A DNA stretch of 36,955 nucleotides from a virus, in IMG/VR virus record IMGVR_UViG_3300032213_000917, positions 1-36,955 of that record; one strand, given 5' to 3'. This document shows, in pieces, positions 19,923 to 35,939 of this stretch. Each line of letters opens with the position of its first letter. The first letter of the stretch is position 1. The notes below the pieces were generated by a model. The model made no database searches, was not told the DNA's origin, and saw only the letters and a list, made by a program, of their open reading frames with translations. The translations under genes were made by a program, and so were the position numbers.

Positions 19923-20501
19923 CTATTCTTTTTGACCTATCGGGCTAATCCAACAGTCCTCTGTGTACACCTTTGTAAAGTAAGCCAAATTTACATTATC
20001 TGAACCACTACTACAACACAAATGCTTTTCGATTGTGCCATAAGATGCAGTATCATCTACTGAGGTGTCTAATGTAATCCATGTAATTGAAGCAGGTGCA
20101 GTTTCCTCAGGTTGTAAAGAATATTTAAAAGCTATTGTGTTGCCATTAATATACATCTCAAACCATATACCTTGAGTAACATTTACATCAGTAGGAAACG
20201 ATGTATAAACAATACCATCGGTTGTGGCTCTACGATATATCTTTATAAAGCCATCACCATCAACCATTATACCCACAAAAGGTACATTGTCTTTAGCTTG
20301 TTTTCTTAATTGTATTCCTGCTTTAGAACCTGTTGTGTCAGGCTCGAAAGTCTTTAAATAAGCTCTTAATGTAAAGGTGGTAAGGGTTTCACTCCACCCG
20401 TAGATATATCCTTCATCCTTGGTCGAATAAAAGTCTCCTGAGCCATACATCTCGATAGATGTTCTACTCTTGTAGTAAAAGTATCCTATTTCTCTTGCCA
20501 T
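19923..20501 (-). CDS. Putative lectin-like tail / fibre-associated protein
   Basis: 192 aa. The pattern of strands (TTFTLRAYLKTFEPDTTGSK; AGIQLR; VPFVGIMVDGDGFIKIYRRA; GIWFEMYINGNTIAFKYSL) resembles a concanavalin A-like jelly roll that binds sugars. It sits between the tail-tip protein and the giant fibre, so a baseplate or fibre-adaptor role is likely. The -1 frame extension of the upstream tail-tip gene ends 5 bases before this start, which explains the apparent gap in the otherwise packed operon. Confidence 0.6.
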   Translation of the reverse strand: MAREIGYFYYKSRTSIEMYGSGDFYSTKDEGYIYGWSETLTTFTLRAYLKTFEPDTTGSKAGIQLRKQAKDNVPFVGIMVDGDGFIKIYRRATTDGIVYTSFPTDVNVTQGIWFEMYINGNTIAFKYSLQPEETAPASITWITLDTSVDDTASYGTIEKHLCCSSGSDNVNLAYFTKVYTEDCWISPIGQKE

Positions 20502-20506
20502 TGTAA

Positions 20507-20613
20507 TTAAGGTATAAAGTCATCCATAAAGAAGGCAACGAATTTACTGAATAATGAACCTGCACCACCAGCTTGACCAAGGTCTGTACCTACCCCGTTA
20601 CGATTTTTTTTTT
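20507..20613 (-). other. -1 frame C-terminal extension of the tail-tip gene
   Basis: After TCT and ten A residues, the -1 frame reads N-R-N-G-V-G-T-D-L-G-Q and on to FVAFFMDDFIP, 32 residues, stopping at 20507. That frame is closed by TAA immediately 5' of the A run and has no ATG until near its end, so it is reachable only through the slip. It fills the gap up to the next start at 20501. Ribosomal or transcriptional slippage, or a homopolymer count error or mutation, would all explain it. Confidence 0.65.
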
Positions 20614-22548
20614 AGAGGAACTAAGTTCCTGATACACGATGTTGTTTTCAACATCAAATAGCGTACAATTTATGGAAGGATTAATTTCGTTGGAGGTGAG
20701 TTCCATGAACACAACCTCAGCAGTACAATCCCTTTCATTTAGCTTCATTGACAATGGGAAAAACTTCTTGTCTGCTAATGCACCTTGAACAGGAAAATTA
20801 TAAATAGCACCATACTCAAGTTGCTCCCCAATGATAGTTCCTGTAAAAATATTACGATAATCAGAATATTGATTAAGTACATTTCTTACCGCTAACTCTT
20901 GAATCTTATATCCATACTCCTCATTTCTTTCGTAATAGATTTCACTTAAAGAAAATCCATCTGCAATTATATTTGACTCATCGTTAATATAAGTTATTCC
21001 ATTTTGCTTTAAGATTGGGCTACCATTATACACAGTAATCACATTAGGATTAATAGATGTGTCTTTTGGATTTACTGCAATTGTACTTTCTAAATTATAA
21101 GGTATAATTGATTGCTCACCAATAGAAACCTCTACATTTAAATAAGTAAAAATTTGGTTGTACAATCCTGCATAACCTGGGAAGTAATAAACCTTTAAGT
21201 AAACAGTACCACTATGAGGTAAATTAATATTTGTTTCAGAAGTAAAATTGTTTCTACCCATAGATGGTTGAGTAGTTGTCCAAACACCTCCTGCAAAATA
21301 CTTTGTAGTGTATCCTACTTCCTCTAATCTAATCTCAAATCCAATATTTGATAAAACACCTAAGGTGTAAGAAAAGGATTCGTCAGAAGCCAAATAAACA
21401 CTATACTGAACGTAAGCATTTAATTGAGTTAAAGCTATGTTCCATTCAGTTGTACTATTATTTAAACAAGGGTAAGCATCACCACTAACTGTAAAACTAT
21501 TCCAAGACATTGTAGCAGGAGGAGTTCCTGAGGCATTATCTAAAATAGTTAATGTTGCATCTTGACCTGCTCCATCCGTTTGGTATTTTGCATAGGTATA
21601 ACCTAAGCCATCCTTAGAAAAGATATTAAGATTACTATTTAAGATAGAATCTCCGTTGTAATATTGGTAATCTATTTGACCTTGCTTATAAAACCTTCTA
21701 ATCTTTCTTTTAGGTTCTGCAATAATCAAGAAATCAGTTCCGTGATAAAATTGTCTGATTGTATTAGTTCCCGTGTAAGAACCTGCATTATTATATTTGT
21801 CAGTTGTGTAATTACCAAATACTAAATCTTTTAGTTTAATAATAAACCATTGACCTTTATTTTGGTAAATAACCAAATTAAAAATATTACAAATACTTTT
21901 AATGATATTATCAACTGAAATAGGTTGATTACCTTTCTCTCTAAAGACATTTATGTATGTACCAATAACATCTATAATTCTATCAAATGATTGGTAGTTC
22001 TTATTCTTTAGCTTTAGTAAAATGTTAAAATTGTAATTATATCCAATAAATCTTAAAGCACTTGCAAAGATGTCTTTAAATGAATTTATGCCATATAACT
22101 TTCTGCCATTGTTTTCTTTTAAGATAGCATTTTTAAATGCACTTAATCCATCAATAGTTTTAAACTCAATTGCAGGATAACGTAAGAATATATCTTCTTC
22201 ACATAACTCAGGAGAAACAAATCCTGTCCAAAATAAAACACCATTACGATAGTATTCTAACACATATTCTTTTTCATCCTCACTAATGATACTATCCATA
22301 TTGATAGCACCACCTAACACCTTAAAAGAAAGAACACTACCTTTTATTGGGTAGAATATATCATCGTCAGCAGTAGGATAATCAATCTCTACGGGAGTAA
22401 CTTGCCCATAAGGAATTGTTATTACTGAACCCGAATAACTCTTTTGTAGAATTAAAACCTTGCAACTAACTATTTTAAGTGCTTGGTCTTTAAATGGCTT
22501 ACAAGTACCATCAAATTCAAATTGATATTTAGTTCCGTATCCTACCAT
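20590..22548 (-). CDS. Tail-tip / baseplate hub protein
   Basis: 652 aa in the zero frame, ending ...SSSKKKIVTG. It lies directly after the tape measure gene, the place of Dit/Tal-type baseplate proteins. Visible strands such as KEYVLEYYRNGVLFWTGFV, KTIDGLSAFKNA and IYQNKGQWFIIKL are typical of Bacteroidota phage tail proteins in this position. There is no recognised enzymatic motif. A run of ten A residues (minus strand; T10 at 20604-20613 on the plus strand) interrupts the last codons. A -1 slip there gives a 680-aa product ending at 20507 (see separate entry). Start shares a base with the tape measure stop. Confidence 0.75.
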   Translation of the reverse strand: MVGYGTKYQFEFDGTCKPFKDQALKIVSCKVLILQKSYSGSVITIPYGQVTPVEIDYPTADDDIFYPIKGSVLSFKVLGGAINMDSIISEDEKEYVLEYYRNGVLFWTGFVSPELCEEDIFLRYPAIEFKTIDGLSAFKNAILKENNGRKLYGINSFKDIFASALRFIGYNYNFNILLKLKNKNYQSFDRIIDVIGTYINVFREKGNQPISVDNIIKSICNIFNLVIYQNKGQWFIIKLKDLVFGNYTTDKYNNAGSYTGTNTIRQFYHGTDFLIIAEPKRKIRRFYKQGQIDYQYYNGDSILNSNLNIFSKDGLGYTYAKYQTDGAGQDATLTILDNASGTPPATMSWNSFTVSGDAYPCLNNSTTEWNIALTQLNAYVQYSVYLASDESFSYTLGVLSNIGFEIRLEEVGYTTKYFAGGVWTTTQPSMGRNNFTSETNINLPHSGTVYLKVYYFPGYAGLYNQIFTYLNVEVSIGEQSIIPYNLESTIAVNPKDTSINPNVITVYNGSPILKQNGITYINDESNIIADGFSLSEIYYERNEEYGYKIQELAVRNVLNQYSDYRNIFTGTIIGEQLEYGAIYNFPVQGALADKKFFPLSMKLNERDCTAEVVFMELTSNEINPSINCTLFDVENNIVYQELSSSKKKIVTG

Positions 22549-24737
22549 TATCTACCTGTGACTCTTAATACTGTTTCTAATGATTTATTTATTTGGTAAC
22601 CCGTTTGTGTCGATGTAATTGAACCTGTAAGGTCAATAGATAAACGAACAGTTTGTGCCGAATAAGAAGAACCTCCATAGGCATAATTCATTCCACTTGC
22701 TTTTTGAGGAATACTTTGTGTCGGTGAAGTTGGTGCTGGAGATGTTTTTGATAATTGATTAGCAGTACCTTTCATTAATCCTCCCAAAGCCATTAAAGCT
22801 AAACCACCTGCCAAACCTGCCGCAGCCCCAAATGGAGTAAACATACCTGATATAAATGCTTGAATACCAATCATGATTTTAGATGCCATTGCAACACCCA
22901 TACCAATCTTAATAAACATATCTCCTAATGCAGAAAGTATAGAAATACCAAAACTTTTAATTGCATCTCCTGCTCCTGCACCTTCTCCTATACTAATAAA
23001 CATATTAGCAAAAGAAGATGTAGTTACTTGAGTAAATTCTTCAATGGTACTTCTTATTGAATCTCCTAAATTTATAAAAGTATTTTTAATTTTATCAGCA
23101 AAATATTGGGCATCACTTAATGCAATTTGCATACCTGAGCTAAACTTTTGAAGTTGCTCTTTTGTCAATGCTTTTCCTAACATACCTCCTTCCATTCCTG
23201 GAAGTGGCTTAATTAATCTTGCTATGGCATTAAACTTTTCAGCCTCAATTTCTCCAATAAGTTGAGCCTCTTTAACTAAGAATGTTCTTGTAATGTCAAT
23301 TGTATCAACACCATATTTATTAAACTCTGCTTTTTGCTTTTCAAATGAATCTCTTAAATCAGCTAACTTTTTTCTATTGCCATCTAATCCAATATTATTC
23401 ATTTCAGCAACTGCATCTTTACTTACTTGAATAAGTCTTTTTACATGGCTACCAAAATCTTTACTTTGAAAATCAAGTCCAGGAATAACTTCTACCTTTT
23501 CTGTCTTTTTCTTTTCTACTCCTACTTTACTTGGTGTTGTACTAAATCCTGTCGCTTTAGATTGGTCTATCTCAGGCATTTTAACCTTAGAAGCATTATC
23601 TATTTTTGTAAATTTACCTACTAACCATTCAATAGCATCACCAAGTATCTTTACATTTTTAAATGAATTTAAAACCGCAACAGACATATTATAAAAAAAG
23701 TCTCTTATAGGTTGACCAGCTTTCATAACAAAATTAAACATCGTAGCTAAGCCCTCAAAAGCATTAACTAATGCAATTATAATATTGCCTAATAAACCAA
23801 ATAATATTTTTAAATTATCAACTAAATAACTTAAAGCCTGTACTACATTTTTATTGTTTTCAAATGCTGATTTAATGTCGTTCATTGTCTTTACAACACT
23901 AACCGCTAAATCATTTAAATTAAAAGCATCTGCTAAACCATCTCCAATATCAGCTAATGCAAAAGTTACACTTTCTGACAACTTATTAAATGCACCTTGT
24001 AATGTTTGTGATTGCTTTTCAGCCATTCCAAAAAATTGACCACCTTCAGAAGTAGCTTTATTAAAAGCATCTGCAACATCTTGAACACTAATTTGTCCAT
24101 CGTGCATCTTCTTAGTCAATGTTGCCATCGACTCTCCTGTAGCATCAGAAATTGCTTTTAACGGATTAAATCCTGCGTTAATCATTTGACGAGCCTCTTG
24201 ACCCATTAAACGACCTGCCGCATTTACTTGACCAAATGCTAAAGCTAATCTTCCAAATCTATCTGCATTACCACCCGAAACATCACCTAACATTCTTGTT
24301 ATAGGTGTTACTTGTTCGGCAGTTAATCCATATTGTAATAATGTTTGAGCCCCCTTAGTAATGTCTTGAAATTGCATCGGGGATGCTAATGCTTGTGCCT
24401 TTAATGAGGCAAGCATATCTTTTGCGGTTTTAGCATTACCTGTAAATACCTCAAAAGCAACTGATATTTGTTCTAATTCCGCAGCGGTTGTTAAAGCTGC
24501 CTTACCAATTCCAAAAACTGCACTAACAATACCAGCAGTAGTCAATGCCATACCCATACTACTAAAAGCAGCAGATATAGCCTTGGAAGTATCTCCCATG
24601 CTATTGCTAATCTGTTGCCCACTTCTTTGGGTTGTATTTGCTAATGATGACAATTGCGTTGAAAGCATATTTAGCTTTTTCATCGCATCATCTACATCAG
24701 CACCAATTTTTATAAAAAACTCATTGGTTTCTGCCAT
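22548..24737 (-). CDS. Tape measure protein
   Basis: 729 aa. The N-terminal domain (residues ~85-290: ELEQISVAFEVFTGNAKTAK; LLQYGLTAEQVTPITRMLGD; MGQEARQMINAGFNPLKAIS; MHDGQISVQDVADAFNKAT) is the tape-measure domain TMP_3. Hydrophobic segments at ~300-330 and ~620-670 suit membrane insertion during DNA ejection. It sets the tail length and forms the ejection channel. It is preceded by the frameshifted chaperone pair, as in other siphoviruses. The length implies a tail of about 100 nm if ~0.15 nm per residue applies (inference). Confidence 0.92.
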   Translation of the reverse strand: MAETNEFFIKIGADVDDAMKKLNMLSTQLSSLANTTQRSGQQISNSMGDTSKAISAAFSSMGMALTTAGIVSAVFGIGKAALTTAAELEQISVAFEVFTGNAKTAKDMLASLKAQALASPMQFQDITKGAQTLLQYGLTAEQVTPITRMLGDVSGGNADRFGRLALAFGQVNAAGRLMGQEARQMINAGFNPLKAISDATGESMATLTKKMHDGQISVQDVADAFNKATSEGGQFFGMAEKQSQTLQGAFNKLSESVTFALADIGDGLADAFNLNDLAVSVVKTMNDIKSAFENNKNVVQALSYLVDNLKILFGLLGNIIIALVNAFEGLATMFNFVMKAGQPIRDFFYNMSVAVLNSFKNVKILGDAIEWLVGKFTKIDNASKVKMPEIDQSKATGFSTTPSKVGVEKKKTEKVEVIPGLDFQSKDFGSHVKRLIQVSKDAVAEMNNIGLDGNRKKLADLRDSFEKQKAEFNKYGVDTIDITRTFLVKEAQLIGEIEAEKFNAIARLIKPLPGMEGGMLGKALTKEQLQKFSSGMQIALSDAQYFADKIKNTFINLGDSIRSTIEEFTQVTTSSFANMFISIGEGAGAGDAIKSFGISILSALGDMFIKIGMGVAMASKIMIGIQAFISGMFTPFGAAAGLAGGLALMALGGLMKGTANQLSKTSPAPTSPTQSIPQKASGMNYAYGGSSYSAQTVRLSIDLTGSITSTQTGYQINKSLETVLRVTGR

Positions 24738-25041: not shown

Positions 25042-25419
25042 TTATTGTAACTTTTTTTTTACCTCTTTTTGCTTTGGTGCATCTAAATCGTTTGGCATTA
25101 AATCTTTAGTAAGCCATTCAACAACAGTCATTACTTGAGTTTGCATTAACCATTTAGTTGCAATCATTCTTGCTTTTTTAATCTTAATTAAAATCTCATC
25201 AGCCTCCTCATCCTTGTCATTGCAATACAACCAATACAAATGACCACTTAACATCATATCTCTTGTAACATCAATTAATTTTGATGGATTTTCACCATAT
25301 TCTTGAATGTTAACAAGGTCATTAAAATCACCACCTAATTCTTTTACATAAACATCGTTTATGCAACCAAGTGAAAAGTCAAAGTTAATTTTCTTTCCTT
25401 CAAATGTAATTGTTCTCAT
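25042..25419 (-). CDS. Tail assembly chaperone, G part
   Basis: 125 aa from the ATG at 25419 (MRTITFEGKKINFDFSLGCI). This start is chosen because it follows the A-rich leader cacaaacacaaaaaca. A longer frame up to 25473 would add a poor, leader-encoded sequence. The body is helical (VTRDMMLSGHLYWLYCNDKD; IATKWLMQTQVMTVVEWL). The end ...EVKKKLQ contains the slippery A9 followed by G. It is the normal-frame member of the pair placed between tail tube and tape measure. Confidence 0.8.
   Translation of the reverse strand: MRTITFEGKKINFDFSLGCINDVYVKELGGDFNDLVNIQEYGENPSKLIDVTRDMMLSGHLYWLYCNDKDEEADEILIKIKKARMIATKWLMQTQVMTVVEWLTKDLMPNDLDAPKQKEVKKKLQ
25052..25060 (-). promoter_or_regulatory. Slippery site for -1 frameshift
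   Basis: Minus strand GTA AAA AAA AAG in frame 0. A shift of -1 on the A9 run reads GTA AAA AAA AAA GTT ACA ATA and continues without a stop for about 30 codons to the T-part ATG and on to 24737. The heptamer A AAA AAG is the best-known bacterial -1 slippery sequence. Confidence 0.85.
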
Positions 25420-33964: not shown

Positions 33965-34104
33965 TTAATGGTTTGGAAAAAATTCTAAATTTTTTTAATG
34001 TGAAATCTGAATTTGATTCGTTTTCAATTTTGGGTTCGCTTATATTATACCTAATAGTATAATTAATGTAATAATATATTCTATATATGTTTTCTTATTT
34101 ATAA

Positions 34105-34185
34105 TCAATCTAAATAACATTAACTTATTGAACCTCAACCTTTTAACTCAAGTGTTCCGCCCCGAAGTACCCTTATTTAGATTGA
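34105..34185. repeat. 13-bp perfect inverted repeat
   Basis: TCAATCTAAATAA (34105-34117) and TTATTTAGATTGA (34173-34185) are exact reverse complements separated by 55 bases. A related degenerate form (ttagattgattctaaatag) is near 34555-34573, so the element occurs more than once in the region. Confidence 0.75.
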
Positions 34186-34368
34186 GTCTTAATAAGTGTT
34201 TACTCCGCAAACTTAGTCAAACTTTGTAAATAACCATATATTTTATTGTTTTTGATTGTTGGTTTTTGGAAAGTGTACACAAGAATTAGTCAAAAAAGTT
34301 TGCGATTTTATTTATTCCTTCCCCACACCCACTTACCCCCACCCCTGTTTGCTCCACGACTTTTTGGT

Positions 34369-34447
34369 TACAAAACGTAGTTTTGAATAAAAAACGTATC
34401 CAAAATGACATATCAACGGGTGAATTTGAATACAAAACGTATTCAAA
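34369..34447. repeat. Iteron-like TACAAAACGTA repeats with palindrome
   Basis: TACAAAACGTA at 34369-34379, TAAAAAACGTA at 34388-34398 and TACAAAACGTA at 34431-34441. The third copy is centred in a perfect 9-bp inverted repeat TTTGAATAC (34425-34433) / GTATTCAAA (34439-34447). The first is centred in CAAAAC-gta-GTTTTG (34371-34385). The arrangement suggests a dimeric protein binding three sites, either an origin-binding protein or a regulator of the late promoter. Confidence 0.7.
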
Positions 34448-34631
34448 AGTGATAACATTATGTTAAGTAGGTGGTAGGCTGGGGGTACCCACTCCGTCTA
34501 TTTATCTGTTTCCTTTGTTTAATGCAGGTTTTACACCTTGATTGAATAGCTTAATTAGATTGATTCTAAATAGCTTCATTATTGATATCCAATAAGAACA
34601 AAGAAACAAAGGTATAAAGATAGACTAATGC

Positions 34632-34706
34632 AATACTTTGAATTTAAGAGACGATAATTAGGTAAAACATACAAACATACTACTTAATATACTAAAGTCT
34701 CTTAAA
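34632..34706. repeat. ~75-bp direct repeat, copy B
   Basis: Same terminal blocks and same 62-base offset as copy A at 188-262. In copy B the inner ends form a perfect 10-bp inverted repeat TTTAAGAGAC (34643-34652) / GTCTCTTAAA (34697-34706). On the circular map copies B and A bracket the five-gene cassette 35384-36837. Confidence 0.8.
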
Positions 34707-34745
34707 TAAAAGATTTGATGCCTTAAAATGAATGCAGTGTATTAA

Positions 34746-34758
34746 GCCGCAAGGCGGC
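34746..34758. other. GC-rich hairpin
   Basis: GCCGC-aag-GCGGC, followed by ggcgg and a long T tract (34785-34800 region ccctttttttctttttttt). It stands out in very AT-rich surroundings. It may act as a plus-strand terminator or a protein site. Confidence 0.5.
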
Positions 34759-35302
34759 GGCGGAACAATTACCCTTTTTTTCTTTTTTTTTAAGGGATAG
34801 TGTTACTATTTAAGTAATTGATTTTTTACCTGTCTTTATATTGGTTATTCCCTTGCATTGTCAAATAAGATTATTGACTACGTTTATTACTCAATATTGC
34901 GTGTAAAATGAATAGTTCTAATAGAAAGAAAGAAAGTAGGCAAAGAAAGAAAGATTAACTCCTAAGGATATATTTAAACTCTTATTGTATACTTAATGAA
35001 ATTAATATACTAATGTAATTAGGGTATTATAAGAGTATACTAATAGCTTCGCTTTATTCAAGAAAAAAATATGAATTGAATTTTAATAAAAAAAACATTT
35101 TCGAAATTATTTTTTAAAAAACTTATAAAACCCTATTAATCAATTATTTAAACGCTAAAAAATAATTTATTTATTAATCTAATGAAATTTAGAACAAATC
35201 TAAATAAGACCTATAAACTGCGTTTAAACGTTATTAAGCCCTATTTATGCTATGTTTTACCTTTGTTTCCTTATTTAGAATGTTTCTAAATTACGTTTAA
35301 TG

Positions 35303-35334
35303 TTTGGTAATTAATGTAAACGTTTATAAGTTTG
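35303..35334 (+). promoter_or_regulatory. Bacteroidota-type promoter for right-end cassette
   Basis: TTTG (35303-35306), 20-nt spacer, TAAGTTTG (35327-35334), fitting the TAnnTTTG consensus. The first gene starts 50 bases downstream. The -7 context (acgtttataagtttgag) differs from the two early promoters. Confidence 0.75.
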
Positions 35335-35383
35335 AGTCAACAAAGAACAAAAAAACATTTTTAACCTATAAATTTTTAATCCA

Positions 35384-35485
35384 ATGAAGAATGTTAAACT
35401 ATCCGAAATTTTACAAGCTGCATTAATTGCAGGATTTTTGTACCTACTTTTTTTTATCATAGCTCCATTTTTACAAAACTTATAA
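35384..35485 (+). CDS. Tiny single-span membrane protein
   Basis: 33 aa (MKNVKLSEILQAALIAGFLY ... APFLQNL), hydrophobic from residue ~12 to 30. It is the first gene of the cassette, preceded by the leader tttttaacctataaatttttaatcca, which is nearly repeated before the next gene. The repeated leader makes translation likely. Function unknown. Confidence 0.55.
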   Translation: MKNVKLSEILQAALIAGFLYLLFFIIAPFLQNL

Positions 35486-35522
35486 TTTTAAATAATTTTT
35501 TAACCTACAAAATTTTAATCCA

Positions 35523-35939
35523 ATGGAAACTAAATTAACCGCAACGTTTAACCCTGGGAAACAAAGTAAATTTAATCCCTTGCACCGCAAAGAATCCAAG
35601 TGTTATTTTAAAGAGTATGCAGGTATTGCTATAAATAAGACCTATAACAATTTATACCCTGCCGTAACTATTCGCACCTATCAAGTAAGTGACGCGGGCA
35701 ACGTTTACGCGTGTATATGGATAAACGGAAACGAAATTCATACCAATGGAAGCGGTAGCGCTGGGGGTTACGGATACGACAAAAAAAGTGCAGCGGTGCA
35801 AGAGGCAATAAATAATGCAGGCTTCACACTATCGGAAAACATTGCAGGACGTGGGAGTATCTTAATACGTGCCGCCGTTATTGCAATTGGTGAGGCTATT
35901 GGTTGCCCTATCGAATATATTCATAATTCACACGCTTAA
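35523..35939 (+). CDS. Hypothetical protein
   Basis: 138 aa, soluble, beta-rich with glycine-rich turns (GSGSAGGYGYDKKSAAVQEA, residues ~76-95) and C-terminal AIGEAIGCPIEYIHNSHA. GC content is visibly higher than its neighbours. Similar proteins with the G-G-Y-G-Y-D-K-x-S-x-A motif occur in Bacteroidota phages and plasmids as I recall, but without a function. Leader ttttttaacctacaaaattttaatcca precedes the ATG. Confidence 0.7.
   Translation: METKLTATFNPGKQSKFNPLHRKESKCYFKEYAGIAINKTYNNLYPAVTIRTYQVSDAGNVYACIWINGNEIHTNGSGSAGGYGYDKKSAAVQEAINNAGFTLSENIAGRGSILIRAAVIAIGEAIGCPIEYIHNSHA

Follow-up and report, generated by a model that had tools for sequence, protein, structure and literature searches.

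An A10 tract before a conserved out-of-frame extension in a phage tail-tip gene, with probable programmed recoding

The tail-tip gene of this virus stops shortly after a run of ten A residues, beyond which the −1 frame stays open, raising the question of whether one gene gives rise to two tail-tip proteins and, if so, by what means. The gene belongs to a tail-gene cluster on the minus strand of an IMG/VR virus record, the whole of which is referred to here as the window (36,955 bp, GC 33%). The cluster includes the tail-assembly chaperone genes (25473-25042 in the first frame, with a −1 frame continuation to 24737) and the tape measure protein gene (22548..24737; PF20155, phrog_9959), which is directly followed by the tail-tip (hub-type) gene (20590..22548), a gene for a 192-aa ConA-like protein (19923..20501) and a gene for an 1828-aa fibre. 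Among named phages, the closest relatives of the tail-tip protein occur in Flavobacterium phage 11b and, as structural proteins, in Cellulophaga phages (24-25% identity), suggesting a Flavobacteriia-type host.

The junction and its out-of-frame extension

The candidate slippage site, AAA AAA AAA A, lies at 20604..20613 on the minus strand. The zero frame reads TCT AAA AAA AAA ATC GTA ACG GGG TAG across the tract and yields a product of 652 aa with the C-terminus SSKKKIVTG, and its TAG stop (20590..20592) is embedded in GGGGTAGG. The −1 frame reads AAT CGT AAC GGG GTA GGT ... ATA CCT TAA (20605-20507) and encodes a 32-codon extension, NRNGVGTDLGQAGGAGSLFSKFVAFFMDDFIP, followed by TAA (20507..20605), such that the joined product would comprise 648+32 = 680 aa. 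The first-pass annotation had described this arrangement from the window alone, and its reading of an A10 run near the gene end with a 32-codon open −1 frame, of products of 652 and 680 aa, and of a next gene whose ATG (20501) lies 5 nt past the extension stop is borne out by the DNA and translations. The −1 frame also possesses, as described there, a TAA just 5' of the A run and no early ATG, the first in-frame ATG being deep inside the extension; a separate gene starting within the extension is ruled out by these two features. Openness of the −1 frame is weak evidence alone, because 1.8% of random codons in the minus-strand genes are followed by at least 32 open −1 frame codons. Coding-strand A runs of at least 8 occur only twice in the 23.6 kb of minus-strand genes, as the A10 tract and the A9 of the chaperone site, and the next longest is A7.

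Protein searches of IMG/VR returned approximately 47 contigs with the junction, of which 42 sequences were analysed, and a further IMG/VR scan found no contigs beyond these. The sequences fall into two layouts. In the shifted layout (19/42), three lysines are followed by a stop approximately five codons later and the extension is in the −1 frame; in the in-frame layout (23/42), the extension is continuous with the body of the protein, as in SKKKNRNGVGTDLGQAGESGTLFDRFVAFFMDDFKP from L013. The shifted set consists of the window, relatives at 73-76% identity, a second group at ~43% (L007, L044, L047 and L048) and a third group (L118-L122 and L127) at ~42% to the search query, in which the extension has diverged to SNGIGTDLGQAGKEGTIFDTFTVFYLDDFVP; together these 19 sequences span ~42-99% identity and derive from many metagenomes. 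The layout is not a matter of one miscounted base, because L048 possesses A11 and is nevertheless shifted, while the L018 and L026 groups possess A10 and are in frame. The most parsimonious history on the protein tree has four layout changes, at least three of them on well-supported branches. Mosaic exchange may have aided these swaps, and no direction of change is claimed. A search of named phages for the extension gave no real match, Flavobacterium phage 11b and Cellulophaga phi18:1 encode distant homologues with neither the A run nor the extension, and a scan of cellular genome contigs for a prophage source found none.

In genes where only a change of frame gives access to the extension, with its conserved peptide ...NGVGTDLGQAG...FFMDDF, selection acts on the −1 frame at the protein level. 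Over 30 codons of the shifted genes, with the third group left out, pN/pS of the extension is 0.19 in the −1 frame versus 1.17 and 3.34 in the other frames, and in the in-frame relatives it is 0.12. No other observation argues as strongly as this contrast for translation of the extension in phages that would need a frame change. A dead frame is ruled out by the conservation of the −1 frame, by pN/pS and by the layout swaps on the tree. The alignment of related phages called for in the first-pass annotation shows the A run and the extension both kept down to ~42% identity, and the annotation's central claim, that the extension is real coding sequence accessed through a change of frame on the A run, is upheld by this conservation and the low −1 frame pN/pS. 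Its own two doubts, that homologues might lack a conserved extension and that the tract might be 11 A residues misassembled as 10, are answered by the presence of the extension across the relatives and by 19 shifted sequences that include one with A11 still out of frame.

Immediately 3' of the tract (20603-20590, minus strand), one frame continues as the extension, whereas each of the others meets a stop (at CGTAA and GTAG) in no more than approximately five codons, an arrangement kept in nearly all relatives. The Gly codon that precedes GTAGG (20596-20590, minus strand) is GGG in all shifted representatives and GGA, GGT or GGG in the in-frame ones, and GGG makes up 142/1971 of the Gly codons in the analysed genes. 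The constancy of GGG in shifted genes may preserve Gly ahead of the zero-frame stop, or it may be an RNA signal.

Conservation of the A tract and a predicted hairpin beside it

The tract is 10-11 A residues long in 42/42 analysed sequences, whichever their layout. Its three lysines are encoded by AAA in every sequence and never by AAG, although elsewhere in the analysed genes, with the tract excluded, Lys codons divide into 815 AAA and 839 AAG (AAG 51%), and both codons occur in two other invariant Lys columns (12:9 and 10:11 AAA:AAG). The base that lengthens the run past the lysines persists in shifted genes even though it belongs to codons for different residues (ATC, AGC, AAC or ACT, for I, S, N or T), and where the codon after the lysines begins with T or C, the preceding serine is TCA, restoring ten A residues. 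Tract length itself thus seems to be under selection, since the bases that complete the run sit in codons of varying residues. The tract is kept beyond the need of the codons or of a ribosomal heptamer (7 A residues), although the sequences represent few independent lineages, perhaps ten by estimate, and their counts are not independent events. Retention of the tract in in-frame lineages would be expected if a short form arises there by slippage.

An inverted repeat, AGGAAC-TTA-GTTCCT (20616..20630, minus strand), is predicted to fold into an RNA hairpin, with 2 nt between its end and the A tract. The stem of L004, AAGAAC-TTA-GTTCTT, differs from that of the window by a paired, synonymous change, and other shifted sequences can form stems at a like place: CTCAC/GTGAG in L047, CTCAG/CTGAG in L048 and GCCG/CGGC in the third group. 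Relative to synonymous-codon shuffles, the upstream stem is in excess in shifted lineages (combined Fisher P = 3e-5) and to a lesser degree in in-frame ones (P = 0.04), in a test that was exploratory and in which the stems differ among lineages; in the L025 group the stem appeared only when the span considered was 2 nt longer, and two in-frame groups have no stem.

The chaperone site serves as an internal control. It contains A9 followed by G (25052..25060, minus strand) and reads GTA AAA AAA AAG TTA CAA TAA, with the heptamer A_AAA_AAG, a classic ribosomal frameshift site. No upstream stem accompanies it (P = 0.997), and structure downstream of it is weakly in excess (P = 0.028). The stem thus appears to be specific to the tail-tip site and not a feature of the genomes, because the chaperone site of the same phages lacks it, although these comparisons are no more than suggestive. 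Folding downstream of the tail-tip site in shifted lineages is slightly above the synonymous expectation (combined P = 0.019). A shared downstream pseudoknot or stem was considered as a ribosomal stimulator and rejected, given that no common fold and only this weak excess of stability was found.

Every relative in which the chaperone site could be located has A9G there, with the exception of L018: its tract is A10, and the two frames form one continuous chaperone gene approximately 2690 nt upstream of its tail-tip gene; this is either a natural variant or a homopolymer miscall. The codon preceding the chaperone lysines always ends in A (GTA, ACA, GCA, ATA or TCA), so that this tract also exceeds the need of the A_AAA_AAG heptamer. 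The only further 9-base A/T run of the window is a T9 on the plus strand (34783-34791), between listed open reading frames (33968-35523).

Proposed transcriptional slippage and the competing explanations

Most likely, one gene gives rise to a short (652 aa) and a long (680 aa) form of a part that acts at the contact between phage and host. That this is a programmed, evolutionarily kept recoding in a gpJ-type hub gene and operates through transcriptional slippage is judged probable, if by no wide measure, on the genomic evidence. RNA polymerase would slip on the A tract: most transcripts would retain ten A residues and encode the short form, whereas a minority would gain one A (or lose two) and encode the long form, and the hairpin in the nascent RNA, immediately 5' of the tract where RNA leaves the polymerase, would promote the slip. 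In-frame lineages would produce mostly the long protein and some short, a lost A leading to the conserved TAG. Two features favour transcriptional slippage: conservation extends to the length of the tract, beyond a mere heptamer, and the stem is positioned on the RNA exit side. Slippage is efficient on runs of nine A or T residues and can be stimulated by a stem-loop in the nascent RNA (PMC5009743). The IS630 element of Roseiflexus likewise has an RNA stem-loop directly 5' of its slippage tract (PMC5009743), but that tract is T5C5 and loses a base; the shifted lineages would have to gain one A (or lose two) on A10, which counts against slippage here.

A −1 programmed ribosomal frameshift, or sliding, on A_AAA_AAA would produce the same two proteins from an unchanged mRNA, and is a serious, though less likely, alternative. 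The heptamer is present in the zero frame (20611-20605), a canonical A_AAA_AAG site exists at the chaperone genes of the same phages, ribosomes of E. coli slide on AAA AAA AAA (PMC4363877), and downstream structure, weakly in excess in shifted lineages, agrees with such an event. Against this, the much shiftier A_AAA_AAG (PMC5009743) is never used at the tail-tip site even though AAG accounts for half of the Lys codons, and the run stays at 10 or more, past the seven bases of a heptamer, even in lineages that need no frameshift. The stem, moreover, abuts the site on its upstream side, and structure so placed attenuates −1 frameshifting in the eukaryotic tests outlined in PMC6321510. Two further explanations place the change in the DNA or in the data. 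Drift of the tract in a phase-variable or recently broken gene, with virion populations switching by mutation, would fit the several layout swaps on the tree and the A10 of L018 at a chaperone site where relatives have A9; it is nonetheless very improbable, given that tract length is constant within each clade across independent metagenome assemblies and that three deep groups have retained the shifted layout while purifying selection acted on the extension, which would be unlikely for a usually unread frame unless switching were frequent. Homopolymers are error-prone in sequencing, and a true A11 would make one continuous gene, but A11 has been correctly called in many in-frame relatives, L048 is shifted with A11, and L007, L048 and the L118 group share the out-of-frame layout with different flanking bases, leaving an assembly or sequencing error with hardly any likelihood.

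The closest known parallel to the slippage proposed here is tssM1 of Citrobacter rodentium, a type VI secretion gene in which an A11 tract undergoes transcriptional slippage at 20-25%, giving short and long forms at 3-4:1, both of which are required (PMC4256274). The likeness lies in an A10/A11 tract just before a stop, a C-terminal part in another frame and a tail-related injection machine, and an excess of the short form with the long form made by slippage, shown for tssM1, may hold here. The two differ in that tssM1 is a bacterial gene with a large essential domain in which slippage has been proven in vivo, whereas the present case concerns a 32-aa tail on a putative phage hub protein and includes relatives with an in-frame extension and a hairpin beside the tract. 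In lambda, the G/GT site lies before the tape measure gene and its products are not in the virion. It resembles the present site in the −1 direction and the tail gene cluster, but the counterpart of G/GT in this phage group is its own A9G chaperone site; the tail-tip site is separate and lies after the tape measure gene, not between the major tail protein and tape measure genes. A second recoding site in addition to the chaperone had been noted as non-standard in the first-pass annotation, and both sites were found in the same phages.

Several phage structural proteins are extended by frameshifting, including those of T3/T7 gene 10, phage A2 and Listeria phages PSA, A118 and A500, and for capsid and tail-shaft extensions an indifference between frameshifted and in-frame versions has been noted (PMC5009743). 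These cases share with the tail-tip gene a common N-terminus, a single virion gene and relatives that interchange layouts, with the two products probable in this instance, but there ribosomal frameshifting lengthens major capsid or tail-shaft proteins, often by an Ig-like extension, whereas here a low-copy tail-tip protein would carry a short linker-helix extension beyond an A10 tract. If both forms are made, a low-copy host-contact protein joins the short list of two-length, one-gene phage structural proteins, and, should the means be transcriptional, it would clearly exemplify phage virion parts produced by programmed polymerase slippage. Paramyxoviruses swap the default form between P and V, to which the repeated swaps of default form among the present lineages may be likened. 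Slippage in the P gene of these viruses is outlined in PMC8204654. No open-access description was found of such recoding in a tail-tip hub or in a Flavobacterium-type phage. Relative to the first-pass annotation, three elements are new here: in-frame lineages that retain A10/A11, a predicted hairpin next to the run, and a hub fold like that of gpJ. The system offers natural in-frame 'mutants' together with an internal control site within the same genomes.

The tail-tip protein and its adhesin-like neighbour

Pfam and PHROGs assigned no function to the 652-aa protein, and Pfam found no domain, Ig-like or otherwise, in the 32-residue extension. A structural model of the in-frame homologue L013 (mean pLDDT 65, pTM 0.66) shows the extension as a low-confidence linker with one helix at 676-685. 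VIA-align matched this model to the central spike of PVC at Z 10.4 (residues 123-629) and to the lambda tail-tip chains at Z 9.3 and 9.2 over 219 aligned residues, scores not far above the rows for CBM domains. The list of structure matches is dominated by a CBM-like insert at ~298-491, and a search of viral structures returned a structural protein of Cellulophaga phi12:1 and many other phage proteins. With moderate confidence, the tail-tip protein is taken to be a gpJ-type hub, resembling lambda gpJ in the fold match of the in-frame homologue and in its place soon after the tape measure gene, and differing from it in the CBM-like insert, in having no long receptor-binding C-terminus and in a putative adhesin encoded as a separate downstream gene. 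The CBM-like insert likely contacts glycans of the host surface. The domain at 298-491 is also the most variable part of the tail-tip protein among relatives.

The gene for the 192-aa protein is a neighbour conserved across all relatives examined. Its homologue follows the extension within a few bases (−17 to +6) in 12/12 representatives checked, and the contigs retrieved with it were almost all already retrieved with the extension. The model of this protein (mean pLDDT 66) is similar in fold to ConA-like domains from GH43 enzymes and CBM66, and the protein looks like an adhesin module. Judging from gene order, the extension may dock this protein or the fibre. Both forms of the tail-tip protein could mix in a hub oligomer, in which the Gly-rich linker and terminal amphipathic helix (FDRFVAFFMDDF) might anchor the downstream adhesin or fibre to a subset of subunits, the mixing and the anchoring being the weakest steps of the mechanism. 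The whole scheme, in which hairpin-stimulated slippage gives a mixed hub, the default form swaps repeatedly with both forms kept, and an adhesin-docking tail on some subunits breaks the symmetry of the tip, is put forward tentatively. Annotation pipelines that stop at the TAG would miss this probable hub-adhesin linking tail in a whole group of probable Flavobacteriia phages. Among relatives, both ends of the 192-aa protein (REIGYFYY at the N-terminus, DNVNLAYFTKVYTEDCWISPIGQKE at the C-terminus) are strongly conserved, and its middle varies.
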